NCBI RefSeq assembly: GCF_022012475.1
Contig: NZ_JAKLWS010000001.1
Span: forward strand, 124,001-188,000
Direction of reading: 5' to 3'
DNA: 64,000 nt
DNA from: Rhodohalobacter sulfatireducens
Lineage (GTDB): Bacteria; Bacteroidota; Rhodothermia; Balneolales; Balneolaceae
A program made the translations under genes and the position numbers. This document shows positions 10,410 through 50,089 of this stretch, in pieces; position 1 is the first letter of the stretch; each line of letters starts with the position of its first letter. The notes under the pieces are model-generated. The model was not told the origin of the DNA, ran no database searches, and saw nothing but the letters and a program-made list of their open reading frames with translations.

Positions 10410-11096
10410 GGCTGCTCTTTTTTTCTTGATTCAATATAGTTTACATCACTTAGTAACGCAATTTGGGTTTTTTATGTTTCTATGGCTCACTCTTTTGTGA
10501 ACAATATCTAAGTATTTAAGTTTTTGACACAAGCATTCAGGATTATGACTAAATTACAATATCAAAATTTTTCTAAAATTCGAAGATCAAACTAGATTCG
10601 GCATAAGCTAACCGTCGCTTCATAATCTACTAGTACTTCATTCTATTCAGACTCTGGCATGTTCCTTCTGTATTTGATCTTAAACATCTCACAAAAAAAA
10701 GAGAGAACATCCTTCTACAGATACTCTCACAGCTTTATGAAAAAGTGAAACTAACAATTCACTCATTTCATTTTTTTATTCTGCACGACTGGCGCCCATT
10801 TACAATTAATCTTTTTTTGTATTTATCTATATTTGATAGTCCAACTATCAATCCTTCATCGATTCCTTATCGAACTGTTCAATAATATCCATCGAAGATT
10901 TTCACGAATTATTGTTCCATCAATCAATTCCGATTTCATTCAAACCCGTTAAATTAATACATGGTTGTAATTCCCCAAATACCGGCTTAAAATAAAACAG
11001 CTTACAATCAGTTTAACCAGTAGTCCCAAATGCAAAGAGCAACATTTCATTAATACAAGAATTAATTTTTTTCTACAGATTGGAAGACATCCTGAT
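10410..11096. other. Gene-free AT-rich intergenic region
   Basis: 687 bp between divergent genes with no credible ORF. It contains a short perfect dyad (TTGATAGT-CCA-ACTATCAA, about 10833-10851) that could be an operator, and several T/A runs. No structured RNA was recognised. Confidence 0.6.
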
Positions 11097-11621
11097 ATGA
11101 ATACAAAGCTGACGATTTCTGAAGGATGGTTTCTAAGATCGCTCTTGCTGATTTTTGTGATATCCCTGTGTTCGGCAACGCTTACCTTTGCACAAACTGA
11201 AGATTCAACAGAAACAGAACGGCAGGAGCTTCAAGAGGAAGAAACACTTGAAAGCACACCTAATGAAAGTGAAACTCCCTATCGCATGGACTTACTGGAA
11301 TCGGATATCAATCGTTACCAGCTTCGCGATTATGGAAGTACAAACCGTTTTTACAGGCAATTGGAATATATGAAACCCGAAGAGTTTCTGATGCGTGGTG
11401 AGGAAGGATACCAACGTTATGGAGAGGAATGGGAAAGGAAAATTAACGAGGATCTTTTAGCAATTATCCGAGCCACATTTAAAGAGGATAGTGAAATTAT
11501 GAAACTCTGGAAAAGTATCGCTCCGTTCCTGTCATTTGGTATTTGGGAACCGTACGAAGTTCCGATTACAAGGGTTGATTATCCAAGCAAAGTACCTGTA
11601 GAAACTGTTGAAGAACAGTAA
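11097..11621 (+). CDS. Secreted hypothetical protein, acidic
   Basis: 174 residues. The N-terminus has a hydrophobic helix (SLLLIFVISLCSATLTFA, residues about 15-32) with an AxA-like cleavage region before QTED, so it is probably exported to the periplasm. An acidic Glu/Thr-rich linker (about 33-60) and a mixed domain (MDLLESDINRYQLRDYGS onward) follow. No family recognised. It stands alone between divergent and codirectional genes. Confidence 0.6.
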   Translation: MNTKLTISEGWFLRSLLLIFVISLCSATLTFAQTEDSTETERQELQEEETLESTPNESETPYRMDLLESDINRYQLRDYGSTNRFYRQLEYMKPEEFLMRGEEGYQRYGEEWERKINEDLLAIIRATFKEDSEIMKLWKSIAPFLSFGIWEPYEVPITRVDYPSKVPVETVEEQ

Positions 11622-40250: not shown

Positions 40251-41192
40251 ATGATGGAATCCTGCTCGATCGTTATTCCCGTTTACAAAAGTTCAAAGAG
40301 CATAGAAATTCTTGTTGAACAGATCGTTGAACTGGGAAATAAACTTGAGCAAAATTTTGAGATTATCCTGGTAAACGACAGTCCTTTTTTTCTTGATACC
40401 GTTCAATCTCTAAAGCGTTTATCTGAGAAGTATCCTTCAATAATTACCATCACCCTCCGAAAAAACCAGGGACAGCATGTTGCCCTTCTTGTGGGCCTAA
40501 AAAATTCTACTGGACAGTATGTCATCACAATGGATGACGATTTGCAACATCCTGTGGAAGAGATTCCTAAACTGCTATCAGCTATAAAAGAGAATAAAAA
40601 TTTAGAAGTGGTTTTTGGAGTGCCCGCTCTCGGTAAAAAAAAGCACAGTTTCTGGCGAAATTTGGGTAGTTATTTTATTAACAATAAAGCGGATTCTTTC
40701 ATCAAGAATGCTCCTGAAGGCATTCGGAAGTCCGCTTTTCGAATTATGACAAGGGATGTGAAGGAGATCATCTTAAAAAATTACAACGCCATGCCTGCCG
40801 TTTCAAGCTTGTTGGTGAATGCTACTTCTCAGGTTGCAAATGTTGAAGTTGAACACAATGAACGGCTCTATGGTAAAAGCCAATACACACTGCGGAAACT
40901 TATCAGCTTGAGCCTGAATAATATTATCTATTATTCGGCATGGCCCCTGAAGGCACTGGGGGCGTTAGGCGTTTTTGGGTTTTCTTTTTCGATGATCTTT
41001 ATACTCTATACTTTATTCCAAAAACTGTTCTGGGGAATCTCATTTCCCGGTTACGCTTCAACGGTTATCCTTATCAGCTTTTTTGGAGGTTTGAACCTGT
41101 TGGCCGTCGGTATTATCGGGGAATATCTCATCCGAATTTTAAGAGAGCAGCAAAAATGGGATTTGGACGATTACATCAAGGAGATTGACTGA
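40251..41192 (+). CDS. Family 2 glycosyltransferase with C-terminal membrane helices (ArnC/GtrB-like)
   Basis: 313 residues. GT-A core with SIVIPVYKSSKSIEIL, FEIILVNDSP, KNQGQHVALLVGL and MDDDLQHPVEEI (DDD metal/donor site, about 95-97). Two C-terminal membrane helices (about 230-295) match bactoprenol-phosphate sugar transferases such as ArnC and GtrB. It likely makes a polyprenyl-phosphate sugar for a GT-C enzyme. Ends 17 bp inside the convergent aminotransferase gene. Confidence 0.85.
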   Translation: MMESCSIVIPVYKSSKSIEILVEQIVELGNKLEQNFEIILVNDSPFFLDTVQSLKRLSEKYPSIITITLRKNQGQHVALLVGLKNSTGQYVITMDDDLQHPVEEIPKLLSAIKENKNLEVVFGVPALGKKKHSFWRNLGSYFINNKADSFIKNAPEGIRKSAFRIMTRDVKEIILKNYNAMPAVSSLLVNATSQVANVEVEHNERLYGKSQYTLRKLISLSLNNIIYYSAWPLKALGALGVFGFSFSMIFILYTLFQKLFWGISFPGYASTVILISFFGGLNLLAVGIIGEYLIRILREQQKWDLDDYIKEID

Positions 41193-42315
41193 AATATTCG
41201 TTCACATGTGAGGTGATTTTCAAGATCTCCTCATCAGAGAGCCGGTAGTAGAAAGGAAGTCTTACCAACCGGTCGGTATACTTATCTGCATACGGCAGTT
41301 CGGGACCTTCATATCGATCTTTGTAAAAATGACTCTTATGCAAACTTTGATAATGAAATACAGCCAATATATTGCTCTTATTCAAATAGTCGATCAATCC
41401 AGTTCTTTGCTCTTCAGATTTACAAACCAGGTAAAACATGTGGCCATTGTTTGTGGCATATTCAGGAATCACTGGAATTTGAATGCCAAAATCATCTGCC
41501 GCGAGTGAAAGACGATCGTAGTACAAATTCCAAATCTCTTTGCGCCTTTGCTGTATCTTTTCCAGGTTTTCGATCTGTGCCCACAGGAAAGCCGCGGTCA
41601 GTTCCGATGGCAAAAATGATGACCCCGTATCCACCCAACCATATTTATCAATTTCTCCCCGAAAAAAGGCCGCTCTGTTGGTTCCTTTTTCCCATATGAT
41701 TTCCGATCGGTCAATAAAACGCTCATCATTAATAGCCAGGAGGCCACCCTCTCCGGCATTGATATTTTTTGTTTCGTGAAAGGAGAAGGCCGCAAGGTTA
41801 CCTATACTTCCAAGTGGATGACCTTTGTAATTCGATTCGATGGCCTGGGCTGCATCTTCAATCACTAACAGGTCGTGTTGATTGGCCAGGTTCATGATGA
41901 GATCCATATCGCAGGCGATACCGGCGTAATGAACAGGAACGATGGCTTTTGTTTTATCAGAAATGAGTGATTCTATCGACTCTTCATTAATCCCGGGATG
42001 ATCGCTTCGACTGTCTGCAAATTTTATGACTGCACCTTGTCTTACAAATGCCAGCGCGGTGGATACAAATGTATAGGAAGGAATGATGACCTCATCTCCG
42101 GGCTGGATATCTGCCAGAAGTGCACACATTTCAAGTGCATCGGTGCAAGATGTTGTAAGTAATGCCTTCTTGAAGCCATATCGTTCTCTGAAAAATGCCT
42201 GACACTTTTTTGTGAAGGCACCGTTTCCAGAGATTTTCCCCGATGATACAGCCTCCTTGATATAAGCCGTTTCATTTCCCGTTAAATGTGGTTTATTGAA
42301 TGGAATTTTATCCAT
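41176..42315 (-). CDS. wecE: dTDP-4-amino-4,6-dideoxygalactose transaminase
   Basis: 379 residues, DegT/DnrJ/EryC1 aminotransferase fold; the closest recognisable type is WecE/RffA. PLP lysine K183 is in SFHETKNINAGEGG; the N-terminus FNKPHLTGNETAYIKEAVSSGKISGNG is cut here to FNKPHLTGNETAYIKEA. It makes a 4-amino-4,6-dideoxy sugar nucleotide from dTDP-4-keto-6-deoxyglucose. It is the last gene of the minus-strand array. No rmlA or rmlB gene is nearby. Confidence 0.88.
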   Translation of the reverse strand: MDKIPFNKPHLTGNETAYIKEAVSSGKISGNGAFTKKCQAFFRERYGFKKALLTTSCTDALEMCALLADIQPGDEVIIPSYTFVSTALAFVRQGAVIKFADSRSDHPGINEESIESLISDKTKAIVPVHYAGIACDMDLIMNLANQHDLLVIEDAAQAIESNYKGHPLGSIGNLAAFSFHETKNINAGEGGLLAINDERFIDRSEIIWEKGTNRAAFFRGEIDKYGWVDTGSSFLPSELTAAFLWAQIENLEKIQQRRKEIWNLYYDRLSLAADDFGIQIPVIPEYATNNGHMFYLVCKSEEQRTGLIDYLNKSNILAVFHYQSLHKSHFYKDRYEGPELPYADKYTDRLVRLPFYYRLSDEEILKITSHVNEYFSQSP

Positions 42316-42321
42316 GCTGCA

Positions 42322-43293
42322 CTATAGTTTTTTTAAATCCGGTATATTTTTTTGCAAACCTTCACTAAATAAAAATCCGGCACCAATAATATTATTCATA
42401 AATATTCCAAGAAGATTAAAGAAGCTTACCAGTAATGCAATCTCCATGGGAACACCAAACTGCCCGAACAGTATGATGAATGCCCCCTCTCGAACCCCAA
42501 GACTGCCAATGGAAATCGGTATGATGAACAGCAAAAAAAAGACCGGTGATGCAAATAAATTTATTATAAAACTGATCTCATAGTTTAAGGCAACAAAAAC
42601 CAGGTAACTGCTGAAAGCGGAAACCACGAGATTACTAAAAGAGAGTACCATCGTTATGATCACCAGTTTTGGTTTTTTAAATACCGAAAGTATACTGTCT
42701 GAGGAATCAAGATCTGCTCTGATTTTCTTTTGAATGCTCTGATTTGAGATTGAATTCACAATCCTTCTCTGAACTCTTTTGTAGTAATAACTACTAACCC
42801 TCCGAACCGGCAGCTTTAATTGATAAGTAACAAGTAGTCCTGTTGTAATTATCAGTAGAGCCGCTATGCTCCAGTAATAGATTTCCCAAAGAAGCTCCCT
42901 GTTTTGTACCAGGGAGTCCGATATAAATGGAAATATTCCCAAAGCAAGCAGCAATACCGCAATCAATGCTGCAAACTTTTCTGCGAGAATTGTGATAAAT
43001 GCCACAGTATATTTCTGTAACTTTTTTCCTACTACAGCTACCCTGTACGCATCCCATCCAATACTACCCGGTGTAAAAAATCCAATTACCATGCTACCCC
43101 AAAATTGCTGAATAATATAGAACAGGGAAATGTCTGTATTGGAGTAAAAACGAGTTAAAAAATACCATCGCAGGGAACCGATCAAAATCTGAACAGGCCG
43201 AACCAATATTGCCAACCCGATGATATATGGATTGGCACTTTTCATGTTTTGGAATAGTAAAGGGATATCAATTTTTCGAAAGATCAGCCACAA
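42322..43293 (-). CDS. LPG_synthase_TM/UPF0104 family membrane protein, second copy
   Basis: 323 residues from a TTG at 43293, 6 bp upstream of wecE. Seven or eight membrane helices; family motifs FFTPGSIGWDAYRVAVVGK and PISIGSLGVREGAFIIL are present. The open frame extends about 30 codons upstream and encodes what looks like the missing first helix (LKTARRIIYLVLPIILLW), but with no ATG, GTG or TTG before it, so the true start may be a rare codon (ATT/ATC/ATA) or an error. Probably a flippase-like partner for lipid-linked sugars. Confidence 0.72.
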   Translation of the reverse strand: MWLIFRKIDIPLLFQNMKSANPYIIGLAILVRPVQILIGSLRWYFLTRFYSNTDISLFYIIQQFWGSMVIGFFTPGSIGWDAYRVAVVGKKLQKYTVAFITILAEKFAALIAVLLLALGIFPFISDSLVQNRELLWEIYYWSIAALLIITTGLLVTYQLKLPVRRVSSYYYKRVQRRIVNSISNQSIQKKIRADLDSSDSILSVFKKPKLVIITMVLSFSNLVVSAFSSYLVFVALNYEISFIINLFASPVFFLLFIIPISIGSLGVREGAFIILFGQFGVPMEIALLVSFFNLLGIFMNNIIGAGFLFSEGLQKNIPDLKKL

Positions 43294-43395: not shown

Positions 43396-44724
43396 TTATT
43401 CAATTAATTTATTTTTTACGAGCTGAGTTTTCCCATTCCTTTCTTTTGGAATTCTATCTGTAAGGGTAAACTCAATTTTCATATCATCACCAAGCCTGGC
43501 TTTCACTAATTTTGCTAACTCTTGTTCAACCCGATTTCTTATCGTGGAGTCCTTCAGAATAATATAAACTTCAAGTTTGTCCGGGCTATTTTGTACAATC
43601 TGTGTCTGAAGAAGTCCATCTACTTTTTCATAAGAGATTATTGAGTTTAATTGGAAATTTGGAAATGGTACCAAATAACCATTCGTATCGAAAAGAACAT
43701 CTCTTTTTCTGCCTGATATATTTCCAACGACTTTATGTTTCATGCCACACCTGCAAGAACTGTTGCTCCATGTTGCAAGGTCACCGGTTTTGTACCGTAT
43801 AAATGGCATTGAATAGTTATAGAACGATGTTGCCGTGATCTCTCCCTCCTCTTTATCACCAACAGCTTGGTTATTATCATCCAATAGTTCCATTATAGAA
43901 AACTCCATATGTTGGTGCAGTTGATGCAGCTCACATTCTGAAATCAGGCATACTCCCTCCCACTGCGTAAAAACATTGAACACAGCACAATCAAATGATT
44001 TCTCTATTATTGACCTGTACTCAGGCAGTAAATTTTCTGAATATGTAATGATACTCTTTAATGAGAAATTGATTTCATAAGATGTATGATCAATAAATTG
44101 AGCCAGTGTATAGATAGCCGTTGGATATCCTCTTATTATTTTAGGCTTTAATTCGGATAGTTTATCAAGGATTCGCTTACAATTCTGATGATCAAGAAAA
44201 AAAGCAGAAATTTGAAGAGAGTTTAACATCCGGTTGTACTTCCAGAGATTTTCCTCAGAACCCAAAAACATCCCGTCTACCTGAGCCCATCTCATATAGG
44301 GTTGATAACCGGCCATTTTCCATATGCGCCAAAAAAAAGTAAATCGAGCTATACTCACGTTTTTATCTTGAAGGAATTTCAAAGGCGACCCGGTAGAACC
44401 GCTGGTTTGATTTTGATAGGGGCTAAACTGCTCAGAATTATCAGCAATCAGATCGTCATATCTCTCTCTGATGATTTCTTTGGTCAACACCGGAATCGCA
44501 GGAAGATCTTCCTTCGTCCGAATATCTCCAGGTTTTATTCCATGTTTATTAAACAAGTCACGGTAATATGGAACATGTTTATAGGCATGTTGAATGAGGG
44601 ATTTGAGCTTTTCATTTTGATGCTCAACAATCCTCTCATACGAAAAATCCCTCGATCTCTTCAGAAACCGGAAAAGTTTGACGATCTCAACAGGGTACAG
44701 GTAATCTGAAATTTTAAATTTCAT
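43396..44724 (-). CDS. PaaK/CapK-like adenylate-forming ligase, copy 1
   Basis: 442 residues; resembles phenylacetate-CoA ligase/CapK proteins of capsule loci. ATP-binding motif TSGSTGSPLKF (about 109-119), acidic/aromatic block TQWEGVCLISE, and a later YNYSMPFIRYKTGDLA adenylation motif. Expected to activate a carboxylic acid as acyl-adenylate and pass it to CoA or a carrier. The three tandem copies share start MKFKISDYLYP. An 86-bp stretch (44309-44394) is identical to copy 2. Confidence 0.8.
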   Translation of the reverse strand: MKFKISDYLYPVEIVKLFRFLKRSRDFSYERIVEHQNEKLKSLIQHAYKHVPYYRDLFNKHGIKPGDIRTKEDLPAIPVLTKEIIRERYDDLIADNSEQFSPYQNQTSGSTGSPLKFLQDKNVSIARFTFFWRIWKMAGYQPYMRWAQVDGMFLGSEENLWKYNRMLNSLQISAFFLDHQNCKRILDKLSELKPKIIRGYPTAIYTLAQFIDHTSYEINFSLKSIITYSENLLPEYRSIIEKSFDCAVFNVFTQWEGVCLISECELHQLHQHMEFSIMELLDDNNQAVGDKEEGEITATSFYNYSMPFIRYKTGDLATWSNSSCRCGMKHKVVGNISGRKRDVLFDTNGYLVPFPNFQLNSIISYEKVDGLLQTQIVQNSPDKLEVYIILKDSTIRNRVEQELAKLVKARLGDDMKIEFTLTDRIPKERNGKTQLVKNKLIE

Positions 44725-44827
44725 AAAAGAAGTAATTAAACTTTGGGCAATTAATCACCTCATTTTTACAGTTAATTATTATTAAACTGCATAAGAAACT
44801 CTACCCAATCTCCTTTACCTCCAGGTA

Positions 44828-46162
44828 TCAAACTTTGTTTAAAAGATTATTTCTTACAAAGGGAGTTTTTCCATTCTTTCTTTTGGGAATGCTGTCGGCG
44901 TATATGAATTCAATATTCATCTCATCTCCAAGCCTGCTTTTTATACTTTTTGTAAATTCTTTCTCAATTCTTTCAGAACTGGATCGATTTTTAACCACCA
45001 GGTATACTTTCACTTTATCCAGGCTGGCTTGTACAATTTGTGACTGAAGTAACCCCTCCACTGTGTCATAAATATCTTTGTTCGATATCTGCAAACCTTT
45101 AAAAGATATTAAGTTTCCTCCTGTATCAAATAAAGCATCTTTTTTTCTGCCCGATATTTTTTTTACCACCATATGGTTCAAATCGCAGCTACAGCTAGTA
45201 TTCTCTCTTATTGCAAGGTCACCTGTTTTGTATCGAATAAACGGCATGGAATAGTTATAAAATGACGTGGCCGTAATCTCTCCTTTTTCATCCATTTCAG
45301 CAGGTTTATTATCGGCGTTTAGTACCTCCATAACCGAAAATTCCATATGCTGATGTAATTCTCCCTTCTCACATTCTGAAATCAAGCAAACTCCCTCCCA
45401 CTGCGAAAAAACATCGAATACTTTACAATTGAATGCTTTTTCGATCGCAAACCGATATTCAGGCAACAAATTTTCTGAATATGTTATAATACTCTTTACA
45501 GGATAGTCAACTGTGTAAGATGAGTTATTTACGAATTGCGACACCATAAAAATGGCCATCGGATATCCTCTGATAATTTTCGGCTTAAAGTCCGATAGCT
45601 TATCTAAAATTTGTTTGCAGTTTCTTTCATGTAGATAGTACGATGAAATTTGCAGTGAATTTAAGGTTCTGTTAAAACTCCAGAGGTTCTCTTTAGATCC
45701 GATATGCATCCCATCTATTTGCGCCCACCTCATATAGGGCTTATAGCCGGCCATTTTCCATATGCGCCAAAAAAAAGTAAATCGAGCTATACTCACGTTT
45801 TTATCTTGAAGGAATTTCAAAGGCGACCCGGTCGAACCGCTGGTCATATTTTCATAGGGGTTAAACTGATCAGCATTATCAGCAATTAAATCATTATATC
45901 GATTCCTGATGATCTCTTTCGTTAACACCGGAATAGCTGGAAGATCCTCTATTGTCTGAATGTCACCGGGTTTTATTCCGCATTCATTGAACAATTCGTG
46001 ATAATAGGGAACGTGATTGTAGGCATGGTGTACAATAGATCGAAGCTTTTCATTTTGATACTCAACGAGCTGTTGGTACGAAAATCCTTTCGACCTATTC
46101 AGAAACCGGAAAAGTTTGAAAATCTCAAACGGATACAGATAATCTGAAATCTTGAACTTCAT
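44828..46162 (-). CDS. PaaK/CapK-like adenylate-forming ligase, copy 2
   Basis: 444 residues, same architecture as copies 1 and 3, with intact TSGSTGSPLKF and YNYSMPFIRYKTGDLA. The middle of the N-terminal half is closest to copy 1 (identical DNA at 45747-45832), while its C-terminal 80 residues (QIVQASLDKVKVYLVVKN onward) are closest to copy 3, so it looks like a recombinant. Separated from copy 3 by a 211-bp gap without a gene. Confidence 0.8.
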   Translation of the reverse strand: MKFKISDYLYPFEIFKLFRFLNRSKGFSYQQLVEYQNEKLRSIVHHAYNHVPYYHELFNECGIKPGDIQTIEDLPAIPVLTKEIIRNRYNDLIADNADQFNPYENMTSGSTGSPLKFLQDKNVSIARFTFFWRIWKMAGYKPYMRWAQIDGMHIGSKENLWSFNRTLNSLQISSYYLHERNCKQILDKLSDFKPKIIRGYPMAIFMVSQFVNNSSYTVDYPVKSIITYSENLLPEYRFAIEKAFNCKVFDVFSQWEGVCLISECEKGELHQHMEFSVMEVLNADNKPAEMDEKGEITATSFYNYSMPFIRYKTGDLAIRENTSCSCDLNHMVVKKISGRKKDALFDTGGNLISFKGLQISNKDIYDTVEGLLQSQIVQASLDKVKVYLVVKNRSSSERIEKEFTKSIKSRLGDEMNIEFIYADSIPKRKNGKTPFVRNNLLNKV

Positions 46163-46373
46163 AGAAGGGTGGAAATCAAAGACACTTAAAAACTTTAAAA
46201 AGAATATTTAAGCCAGAATAAATAGTTGATATGCTTCTATTTTTTGTACCAAATACACAAATGCTTTACTTTTTTTGATTGCAAAATTAAGTTACTCCTT
46301 TTTAATTGATGATTCAGTCAATATTTTGGTGTTATTCTTTTGATCATTAATTGAAATCAAATACTGATTATAT

Positions 46374-47702
46374 TTAATCAATGAGATTATTTCTTACAAA
46401 GGGAATTTTTCCACTCTTTTTTTTGGGAATTCTGTCGGTGTAAACGAATTCAATATTCATCTTATCTCCAAGCCTGCTTTTTATACTTTTTGCAAATTCT
46501 TTCTCAATTCTTTCAGAATTGGATCGATTTTTAACCACCAGGTATACTTGCACTTTATCCAGACTGTCTTGTACAATTTGTGCCTGAAACAACCCCTCAG
46601 CATACTCTTCAGAAACAAATGAGTAGATCTGGAACCTTTGGAAAGGCACCAAATTCCCCTCCGTATCGAATAGCACATATACCATTCTTCCTGATATATT
46701 TTCAACGACTTTATGATCCATACCACATTCACAAGAACTATTGCCCCACGTTGCCAGGTCGCCGGTTTTATATCGAATAAACGGCATAGAATAGTTATAG
46801 AAAGACGTTGCCGTAATTTCTCCCTCCACTTTATCCCCGACCGGTTGACTGTTTTCATCCAATAGTTCCATTGCAGAATACTCCATGTGGTGATGTAGTT
46901 GATTCTGCTCACATTCTGATATCAGGCAAACGCCCTCCCACTGCGAAAAGAGATCAAATACCGGGCAGCTAAAAACATGCGTAATTTTTGACCTGTACTC
47001 AGGCGGTAAATTTTCTGAATACGTAATAATACTTTTTAACGGTAAACTGATTTTATAGGAATTATGATCAATATGCCGGGCCAGTGTATAGAGAGCTGTT
47101 GGATATCCTCTTAAAATTTTCGGTTTAAACTCCAAAAGTTTATCCAGTATTCGTCCGCAATTCTGATGGTCAAGATTGTAAGCGGATATTTGAAGTGAAT
47201 TTAACATTCGGTTATGATTCCAAAGATTTTCTTTCGACCCCATATGCATTCCATCAACCTGTGCCCATCTCATATAAGGCCTATAACCGGCCATGTTCCA
47301 TATGCGCCAAAAAAAGGCAAAACGGGCGATGCTGATATTTTTGCCTTGCAGAAATTTCGTAGGCACACTGGTTGAACCACTTGTTTGATTTTGATAGGGC
47401 TTGAATTGTCCGGCATTTTCAGCGATCAAATCATTATATCTGTCCCTGATGATCTTTTTGGTCAAAACAGGGATGGCGGGAAGATCCTCAACCGTTTGAA
47501 TATCGCTCGGTTTTATTCCGTGCTCGTCGAACAACTCGCGGTAATAGGGAACATGCTGGTAAGCATGACGGATGATGGACCTCAGCTTTTCATTTTGATG
47601 CTCAACCAGCTGTTGGTACGTAAAAGCCTTCGACCTTTTCAAAAACCTGAAAAGCTGAGCAATCTCAATCGGATACAGATAATCTGAAATCTTGAATTTC
47701 AT
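46374..47702 (-). CDS. PaaK/CapK-like adenylate-forming ligase, copy 3 (altered P-loop)
   Basis: 442 residues, same family. The ATP-binding motif reads TSGSTSVPTKF: glycine and serine of the canonical SGSTG-S are replaced by S and V, so its adenylation may be weakened or specificity altered. The rest (FSQWEGVCLISE, YNYSMPFIRYKTGDLA, four clustered Cys around SCECGMDHK) is intact. Follows the WecD-like gene by 41 bp in the transcription direction. Confidence 0.78.
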   Translation of the reverse strand: MKFKISDYLYPIEIAQLFRFLKRSKAFTYQQLVEHQNEKLRSIIRHAYQHVPYYRELFDEHGIKPSDIQTVEDLPAIPVLTKKIIRDRYNDLIAENAGQFKPYQNQTSGSTSVPTKFLQGKNISIARFAFFWRIWNMAGYRPYMRWAQVDGMHMGSKENLWNHNRMLNSLQISAYNLDHQNCGRILDKLLEFKPKILRGYPTALYTLARHIDHNSYKISLPLKSIITYSENLPPEYRSKITHVFSCPVFDLFSQWEGVCLISECEQNQLHHHMEYSAMELLDENSQPVGDKVEGEITATSFYNYSMPFIRYKTGDLATWGNSSCECGMDHKVVENISGRMVYVLFDTEGNLVPFQRFQIYSFVSEEYAEGLFQAQIVQDSLDKVQVYLVVKNRSNSERIEKEFAKSIKSRLGDKMNIEFVYTDRIPKKKSGKIPFVRNNLID

Positions 47703-47743: not shown

Positions 47744-48466
47744 TCAGAAGTTATTTAAATGTAAGACATACACTGCTGAATGAAATCTATATCCCATATT
47801 CATCAGTAAGTTAATATAGCTCTGATTGTTAATACTGGTATTTATCTGAAATTTCCTGATCTCATGATCCCGGCACCATTCAAATCTTTTTTGATGTAAA
47901 ATCTTAGCAACACCTTCCCCTTCAAATTCTGGGTCTACACATAACAAACCTGCAACGGCTACCTCTTTCTGAACTTTTAGGGATGCAAACCCGGCAATAT
48001 TTCCATTGTAACGACAGGCATAAACGACATCTGCCATGCCATCTCTGATTACAAGATTCTTAGCCCAATCCTCGTAAACTTCATCACAGCGGGTGCTATC
48101 CAAATACGGATTATTGTGATAGTGACTTTGATAATCCTGAAACGCCTCTTTTGTTATTTCACCGAGCTTATGGCTTATGCTTTTGTCAGCAACTTGAACT
48201 TCTATTGATGAATCATCGTACTTATCATAAAGAGAAGAATCAACATCCATTGAAAATTTCAGGATCGTGTCTGTAACAAAAAAACCCTCATCAAATAATT
48301 TGTTGAGAGACTGTTTGTAAGATGTATCACATTTGGCAATGAGAAGTTGTCCCTGTTTTTTTCGGAAATCTGTTAGCAGGGTTTGTATATCAATATCCTC
48401 ATCTACGTAAATTTTTGCGGTTTTTAGATTAAACCTTTCGTAATCTAATTCAGACCAATGAAGCAT
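47744..48466 (-). CDS. WecD-like GNAT acyltransferase
   Basis: 240 residues with a C-terminal GNAT domain (about 85-235; AGLLCVDPEFEGEGVAKIL contains the acyl-CoA loop) and an N-terminal domain arranged like E. coli WecD, including a HNNPYLDSTRCDEVYEDW segment. WecD acetylates the 4-amine of dTDP-Fuc4N made by WecE, and a WecE-type enzyme is in the same array. Whether the donor is acetyl-CoA or another acyl-CoA is open. Confidence 0.75.
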   Translation of the reverse strand: MLHWSELDYERFNLKTAKIYVDEDIDIQTLLTDFRKKQGQLLIAKCDTSYKQSLNKLFDEGFFVTDTILKFSMDVDSSLYDKYDDSSIEVQVADKSISHKLGEITKEAFQDYQSHYHNNPYLDSTRCDEVYEDWAKNLVIRDGMADVVYACRYNGNIAGFASLKVQKEVAVAGLLCVDPEFEGEGVAKILHQKRFEWCRDHEIRKFQINTSINNQSYINLLMNMGYRFHSAVYVLHLNNF

Positions 48467-48537: not shown

Positions 48538-49215
48538 TTAATGATCCCGAATAATTTTACACGGATTTCCATAAGCTACCACTCCTGAAGGAACGTCTTT
48601 CGTCACTACGCTACCGCCCCCTATGATTGTGTTTGAGCCGATCTCAACTCGATCGAATACCACACTGCCCATTCCTATCTTTGTTTTACTACCAATGGTG
48701 CAGTGCCCGGCAATATGTGTTCCCGGGTAAAGGGTCGTAAAGTCACCAATTTGCGTATGATGACCAATCGAAACACTTCTATTCATGGATAAACCAAACC
48801 CTAAATCTGCATATGGAGAGATCACACACCCGGGTTCTACGTAAATTCCCGTACTCAAAGAAACTGTACTTGCAACATTGGAGGAGGGATGTATCAAATT
48901 GAAGTATTGATCCTTAGAAATATCGTGAGATTCTAAAAAGTGACTGAATATTTTTTCTTTAATCCAGGGAGTGGATACAGAAAAAAGGCAGGTGTCTTTA
49001 CTTCCTTTTTTATACTCTCCTGACTTATAAATCTCATAATCAAATCCACAGTTAAAGGGCACATTATCGGTAACCTCAATATTTTTTATGATTTTGATTG
49101 ACTTTTTGTACCCGCAATCCCTCAATGAGTTAAATACAAGTGACAAATAACTGCCGCTAAATCCAAACAGGCAGATATCATCATCTAACAATAAATCATT
49201 TTCCCGATCTTCCAT
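48538..49215 (-). CDS. NeuD/PglD-family sugar O- or N-acyltransferase
   Basis: 225 residues. N-terminal small alpha/beta domain (DICLFGFSGSYLSLVFNSL) followed by a left-handed beta-helix of hexapeptide repeats (about 115-215: VEPGCVISPYADLG, IGHHTQIGDFTTLYPG, IGGGSVVTKDVP). Active-site histidine is likely in SIGHHTQIG. NeuD/PglD enzymes acylate sugars or UDP-amino sugars. Second in the minus-strand array. Confidence 0.83.
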   Translation of the reverse strand: MEDRENDLLLDDDICLFGFSGSYLSLVFNSLRDCGYKKSIKIIKNIEVTDNVPFNCGFDYEIYKSGEYKKGSKDTCLFSVSTPWIKEKIFSHFLESHDISKDQYFNLIHPSSNVASTVSLSTGIYVEPGCVISPYADLGFGLSMNRSVSIGHHTQIGDFTTLYPGTHIAGHCTIGSKTKIGMGSVVFDRVEIGSNTIIGGGSVVTKDVPSGVVAYGNPCKIIRDH

Positions 49216-49255: not shown

Positions 49256-50089
49256 CTAATTATTTTCATTATAAAATCCATGATTCCCAAATTCTTTAGC
49301 TGACATCACCTCTTTTTCATGAACCTTAAGAAGCTTATGAGTTCGTTTCAAAAGATCGGTATTGGATGCTAACTGCCTTTTTTCTGAATCAAACCAAATA
49401 TTATCTTCAAGGCCAATTCTAGCACCATACCCCATTGCAATTGCTGAAGCAGTAACGGGAAGCTGAGCCAACCCTATACCGGCCAGTGAAATAAAATGAT
49501 TCTCAGGAATCGATTGGATGGCCGTACCCATCTGATGGAAGTTCGCCTGGAAGCCGGCAATATTTCCAAATAGCAAATTCCAGTAGTAAGGCCCTTCGAT
49601 TGCGCCTTTTCTTATCAGGTATTGGCCATAATTTATCATTCCCAAATCAAAACACTCTAGTTCCGGATGCACGCCAAATTGACTCATTTTCTGTGCGAGT
49701 TTTTGGATCATATCAGGAGAATTGATCGACGCTTGCTTGGGAAAGTTAAGTGAAGACAACGTTAGCGAACACATATCAGGCTGTAATTCTATTACTTCGG
49801 CTCTCTTTTCAAACTCAGAATTCACTCTTCCCGAGGTGCTGGCACAAATCACCAAATCAGGACAGTATTTACGAATTCCTTCAAAAATATCCCTGTAAAT
49901 AGATGCTTTCCAGGTGGGCATCCCATTTTCATCCCTTGCGTGCAGGTGTACAATTGTGATGCCTAATTCATACGCCTCATGCGTCTGTTCAATGATTTCT
50001 TCTGGCTGAACAGGAACATGGGGGGTCATATTTTTTGTCGGCACCATGCCCGTAGGGCAAAAGTTTATGATAATCTTATTTGATAACAT
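49256..50089 (-). CDS. BKACE-family beta-keto acid cleavage enzyme (DUF849)
   Basis: 277 residues from the ATG at 50089, which is preceded by AAGAGG and GAGG elements; the longer frame starts at a TTG. Family signatures: NFCPTGMVPTKN at the start, then IVHLHARDENG (H48, H50) and GLEDNIWF (E228), the three positions of the metal and substrate site of 3-keto-5-aminohexanoate cleavage enzyme. Family reaction: beta-keto acid + acetyl-CoA to a new CoA ester + acetoacetate. First gene of the minus-strand array; an unusual partner for glycan genes. Confidence 0.85.
   Translation of the reverse strand: MLSNKIIINFCPTGMVPTKNMTPHVPVQPEEIIEQTHEAYELGITIVHLHARDENGMPTWKASIYRDIFEGIRKYCPDLVICASTSGRVNSEFEKRAEVIELQPDMCSLTLSSLNFPKQASINSPDMIQKLAQKMSQFGVHPELECFDLGMINYGQYLIRKGAIEGPYYWNLLFGNIAGFQANFHQMGTAIQSIPENHFISLAGIGLAQLPVTASAIAMGYGARIGLEDNIWFDSEKRQLASNTDLLKRTHKLLKVHEKEVMSAKEFGNHGFYNENN

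Follow-up and report, generated by a model that had tools for sequence, protein, structure and literature searches.

Enzymes of the beta-keto acid cleavage enzyme (BKACE) family are known chiefly for the breakdown of small acids and are usually annotated as lysine-degradation enzymes. What does such an enzyme do at the head of a run of sugar-modification genes in Rhodohalobacter sulfatireducens? We addressed this question in a 64,000-nucleotide stretch of its genome (the window). The gene reads on the minus strand from an ATG at 50089 to a stop that ends at 49256, and the plus strand across the same interval contains 13 stops. The encoded protein matches PF05853 over the full domain, with 267.7 bits against a gathering cut-off of 24.8. 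A search of the genome found no second BKACE, leaving the window gene as the only one.

An AlphaFold2 model of the protein (15 sequences) is a TIM barrel with a mean pLDDT of 88.6. Among solved structures it comes closest to 3NO5, 3FA5, 3CHV and the Kce structure 2Y7E (TM ~0.9). The zinc ligands H48, H50 and E228 are invariant in an alignment of 15 sequences, and the first-pass annotation had placed them correctly. It had also matched them to positions of Kce, the 3-keto-5-aminohexanoate cleavage enzyme. The ligands are common to all BKACEs compared and thus mark family membership, not Kce function. The role of Glu145 as the base is taken from a study of BKACE enzymes (PMC11961710).

The window BKACE is not the lysine-degradation Kce. 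It scores 223.3 on the NCBIfam Kce equivalog, below the cut-off of 382, whereas a positive control from Marinifilum (L074), whose locus also encodes lysine 5,6-aminomutase, scores 444.9. The Marinifilum genome also carries the NeuD-linked type of BKACE described below, as a second, separate gene. Kce (PDB 2Y7D-G) and the window BKACE share the fold, the zinc ligands, the base Glu, the Arg and the Asp at ~28% identity, but Glu14 of Kce, the residue that binds the amino group of the substrate, is replaced by Val16. Trees with and without viral members both place the window BKACE outside the Kce branch. No lysine 5,6-aminomutase was found in the window genome (G000), and the same search recovered the enzyme in G440. 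Lysine degradation was therefore rejected on four grounds: the curated cut-off, the Val in place of Glu14, the absence of the aminomutase and the position in the tree. The contrary outcome named in the first-pass annotation, placement within Kce together with kam genes elsewhere in the genome, did not occur in either the tree or the genome search.

The window BKACE also falls below the cut-offs of the 3-oxoadipate:acetyl-CoA acetyltransferase model (NF053568; 201.6 against 350) and the 3,5-dioxohexanoate:acetyl-CoA acetone transferase model (NF053538; 146 against 430). Two control BKACEs encoded beside pcaD (L102 and L103) score 491 and 494 on the 3-oxoadipate model. The 3-oxoadipate-type enzymes (PDB 3NO5 and 3FA5 group) are the closest solved folds, with 33% identity, but the window BKACE has Trp232 where these enzymes have an Arg, and their context is pcaD/benzoate. 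Because the amino-binding Glu of Kce and the 3-oxoadipate-type Arg are both absent, we would guess from the sequence that the substrate is neutral and polar. The intact catalytic residues would agree with an ordinary catabolic BKACE, for lysine or another substrate, that sits in a glycan locus by chance. We regard this as extremely unlikely and already largely refuted, as the protein is below all curated BKACE cut-offs while the positive controls pass, is the only BKACE of a genome that lacks lysine 5,6-aminomutase, and belongs to a separate clade whose identical gene pairing recurs across distant bacteria and viral contigs.

Phylogenetic analysis by maximum likelihood placed the window BKACE in a clade of 30 rows (support 100/99), apart from Kce and from the 3-oxoadipate group. 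The same clade persisted after viral members were added (100/100). Its members retain the zinc ligands, the base Glu, the Arg and the Asp, and the residues of the clade include N9, M15, S86, T110, N153 and N176, an active-site signature that is provisional since the outgroup has 14 rows only. Nine of the 22 clade positions map close to the points where the barrel strands end on their C-terminal side, modestly more than expected (p 0.018, post hoc). All full-length BKACEs found among 394 Bacteroidota genomes are of the window type or are the Chlorobiaceae fusion described below. L156 and L183 (40% identity) were excluded as another subtype.

Phe147 is invariant in the clade (15 aligned sequences). 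According to a preprint, all BKACEs carry a Tyr at this position and BsfD has a Phe instead (PMC12871164). We found Phe there in the control Kce (L074) and in the 3-oxoadipate enzymes L102 and L103, so the claim of a universal Tyr fails as a general rule. Phe147, first considered as a sign of BsfD-type chemistry, is for the same reason not diagnostic and was dropped as such. In the flavophos pathway, BsfD (DUF849, PDB 9ZSC) serves as a biosynthetic enzyme of the same family, and it transfers acetyl onto a beta-keto acid without cleavage. Were the window enzyme to act in this way, the beta-diketo product would become the acyl group. Both the invariant Phe and the missing CoA transferases of some genomes fit such an acetoacetate-free reaction. 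We still consider it unlikely, as Phe is shared with enzymes from a kam locus and from beside pcaD, and a free diketo acid would require activation before an acyl-CoA-using transferase could accept it. BsfD also differs in belonging to a phosphonate pathway, in an insertion with Arg91 and in having no described acyltransferase partner (PMC12871164).

In the window, the BKACE gene heads a same-strand run that continues with genes for a NeuD-like protein, a GNAT protein, three PaaK-like ligases, an LPG_synthase_TM protein and WecE (Table 1). The first-pass description of the neighbours as sugar-modification and acid-activation genes holds for these seven downstream genes. The first gene upstream, which is divergent, encodes a PMT_2-type glycosyltransferase, and beyond it lies one whose product resembles, by eye, a SAM methyltransferase. 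TIGR03570 is the top-scoring model for the NeuD-like protein, although the score is below the cut-off of 160.8. The three PaaK-like ligases in tandem (43396-47702) represent a local expansion. None was seen in the other BKACE loci compared, and the ligases were rejected as a constant part of the module because they were labelled in the window only.

Table 1 Features of the window and of the compared loci, with positions counted within the sequence named.
Feature	Sequence	Positions	Strand	Basis
BKACE (beta-keto acid cleavage enzyme family), 277 aa	window	49256..50089	minus	PF05853; Zn ligands H48, H50, E228; base E145; R224, D229
NeuD/PglD-like left-handed beta-helix (LbH) sugar acyltransferase, dedicated partner	window	48538..49215	minus	TIGR03570 128.5 bits; Hexapep; own clade with BKACE-linked NeuDs
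GNAT acyltransferase, WecD-like	window	47744..48466	minus	PF00583; PRK10975 (WecD) 67.6 bits, below cut-off 219
PaaK-like adenylate-forming ligase 1	window	46374..47702	minus	phenylacetate-CoA ligase-type NCBIfam models, all below cut-off
PaaK-like adenylate-forming ligase 2	window	44828..46162	minus	
PaaK-like adenylate-forming ligase 3	window	43396..44724	minus	
LPG_synthase_TM (UPF0104-like) membrane protein	window	42322..43293	minus	PF03706 106.3 bits
WecE-type dTDP-4-amino-4,6-dideoxygalactose transaminase	window	41176..42315	minus	NF008687 549 bits, above cut-off 375
Half-length DegT-like protein	L070	11152-11790		
Half-length DegT-like protein	L149	3987-4634		
Half-length DegT-like protein	L152	7413-8033		
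Half-length DegT-like protein	L154	7441-8085		
Half-length DegT-like protein	L166			
NeuD with two in-frame stops	L060	~10482-11129		
CitE-like aldolase, MaoC-like hydratase and PglD-like set	L057	5307-6658		
Wider-clade BKACE cluster (Salmonella plasmid pRSE21)	L031	11428-14292		
Wider-clade BKACE cluster (Streptomyces camelliae plasmid)	L095	1-4197		

We profiled the neighbourhoods of related BKACE genes and found that the sugar contexts vary and the BKACE-acyltransferase pair is constant. Of 26 bacterial loci, some from close relatives, 24 carry a NeuD-like gene on the BKACE strand no more than two genes away, and the stop and start codons often overlap. By chance, 0.03 of 12 such loci would be expected (12 genomes with counted NeuD genes; rough gene counts). 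One of the two exceptions, L059, stops at a contig edge. In the other, L060, a NeuD gene with two in-frame stops sits beside an intact BKACE, and an intact pair is located elsewhere in the same genome. This near-constant pairing with a NeuD-like acyltransferase is a new result for this branch of BKACEs.

The linked NeuDs form a clade of their own (98/98), apart from the other NeuDs of the same genomes, and this holds for 23 of the 24 rows labelled as linked. The one labelled row that falls elsewhere comes from a bystander gene on the opposite strand in L057. The only unlabelled member of the clade is a further copy from the same operon. These partners share the LbH fold with the NeuD/PglD/VioB sugar N-acyltransferases (TIGR03570), whose chemistry is acyl-CoA-dependent, but they differ in scoring below the cut-off, in a divergent N-terminal part and in their separate clade. 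The two genes are also inherited together. BKACE is present in 11 of 245 Cyclobacteriaceae genomes, and the dedicated NeuD occurs in 10 of these 11 versus none of the 234 without BKACE (Fisher p 6e-17, which is optimistic because the genomes are related). The profile for the dedicated NeuD was built partly from these sequences, so what carries information is that the other 234 genomes lack this NeuD. One of the 10 genomes has a second dedicated NeuD located away from its BKACE.

In Chlorobiaceae, GNAT and BKACE are found in one protein (L023-L030, L071-L073). Several of these fusions have a homocitrate-synthase-like gene, or one for an ATP-grasp protein of cyanophycin-synthetase-like type, nearby.

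IMG/VR contigs contain 23 non-redundant BKACEs of the clade, and 22 of them adjoin NeuD or GNAT: a NeuD-type gene is at most two genes away in 17, a GNAT gene is directly downstream in five, and L164 has neither. In the tree, these viral proteins are intermixed with bacterial members, and their catalytic residues are conserved (L149 was partly aligned). Genes for terminase, portal, T4-type RNA ligase or head-tail adaptor proteins are located near L146, L147, L149 and L153; the viral status of the remaining contigs rests on the IMG/VR label. The INPHARED phage genomes yielded no match. We tentatively suggest that bacteria and large tailed phages both carry a mobile BKACE-acyltransferase module in which beta-keto acid exchange may lead to an N-acyl group not described so far, placed on glycans of the surface or of the virion. 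Phages could in that way remodel their own glycans or those of the host.

BKACEs yield acyl-CoA, and NeuD-type and GNAT enzymes consume it. The near-constant pairing, the fusion and the co-inheritance across varied sugar contexts point to a BKACE that fixes the acyl group. With moderate confidence, we interpret this as a biosynthetic BKACE that makes an unusual short acyl-CoA, from which the neighbouring NeuD-like or GNAT enzyme transfers the acyl group to an amine. As the maker of the donor, the BKACE would use the canonical exchange, in which a beta-keto acid and acetyl-CoA give acyl-CoA and acetoacetate. The NeuD-like (LbH) or GNAT protein would then move the acyl group onto an amino sugar. 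In the window, the acceptor would most likely be the 4-amino group of a dTDP-4-amino-4,6-dideoxyhexose, which the WecE homologue would supply. The first-pass annotation had proposed that the enzyme serves to make a specific acyl-CoA. This part gains from the dedicated pairing with, and fusion to, acyltransferases that use acyl-CoA. Its stress on acid activation is not supported, since the PaaK-like ligases of the window were seen in none of the other BKACE loci compared.

Linkage of the BKACE and acyltransferase genes does not require that their products act in sequence, and the sub-threshold TIGR03570 score of the window NeuD-like protein also speaks against this interpretation. CoA_trans (PF01144), the usual route for acetoacetate re-use, is absent from the window genome and from three of nine other genomes tested, and no dedicated source of the beta-keto acid was seen in minimal three-gene cassettes. 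The missing CoA_trans of the window genome and the lack of an evident beta-keto acid source count against an easy canonical reading.

The reaction could also run in reverse, from acyl-CoA and acetoacetate to a beta-keto acid that a PaaK-like or ATP-grasp ligase would activate. The three PaaK-like ligases of the window and the ATP-grasp genes at several loci are consistent with this, and Bacteroidota O-antigens contain related acyl groups, namely 3-hydroxybutyryl and 3,5-dihydroxyhexanoyl (PMC3210612, PMC6519341). However, a ligase beside the pair is missing from most bacterial and viral loci, and the dihydroxyhexanoyl group of Flavobacterium psychrophilum is assigned to ketoacyl-ACP synthases, not to a BKACE, which makes the reverse direction rather improbable. 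The wfpC-G acyl route of the F. psychrophilum O-antigen resembles the acyl-CoA-donor route proposed here in that an acyl-making set feeds a PglD homologue, but it uses ACP and ketoacyl synthases instead of BKACE (PMC6519341). The linkage data that suggest a donor-making BKACE would also suit one that modifies the acceptor, such as an N-malonyl sugar once NeuD has done its step. In BKACE15, however, both substrates use one channel, which acetyl-CoA fills (PMC11961710). A nucleotide sugar would probably not be accommodated there, and an acceptor-side role is very improbable.

If the BKACE does make the acyl-CoA donor, the pair would supply sugar N-acylation with acyl donors by a new route, one that is also phage-borne. 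This branch of BKACEs is probably mis-annotated wherever it is present. As a genomic rule, a BKACE beside NeuD or GNAT would flag glycans with unusual acyl groups. A literature search limited to freely readable papers returned no description of this gene pairing and none that connects BKACE/DUF849 with glycan loci or with phages.

Other genes recur around the BKACE-NeuD pair. Half-length DegT-like proteins (~210 aa) that keep the PLP lysine are found beside it (Table 1), as are WbqC-like proteins in bacteria and viral contigs (L057, L058, L149, L168 and L169, some identified by eye); the literature search on WbqC found nothing relevant. In the genus of the window and in Algoriphagus (L013, L067, L068, L069 and L144), NeuD is joined by ATP-grasp ligases and a FemAB-like protein, and these could be alternative amide-forming enzymes. 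Divergent from the pair in L057 are genes for a CitE-like aldolase, a MaoC-like hydratase and another PglD-like protein, perhaps a second source of acyl-CoA. BKACEs of the wider clade on a Salmonella plasmid (L031) and a Streptomyces camelliae plasmid (L095) occur with RibA, gamma-glutamyltransferase and a methyltransferase, and the L031 cluster additionally has RibD and riboflavin synthase. These two clusters probably encode a pyrimidine- or flavin-like natural-product pathway.
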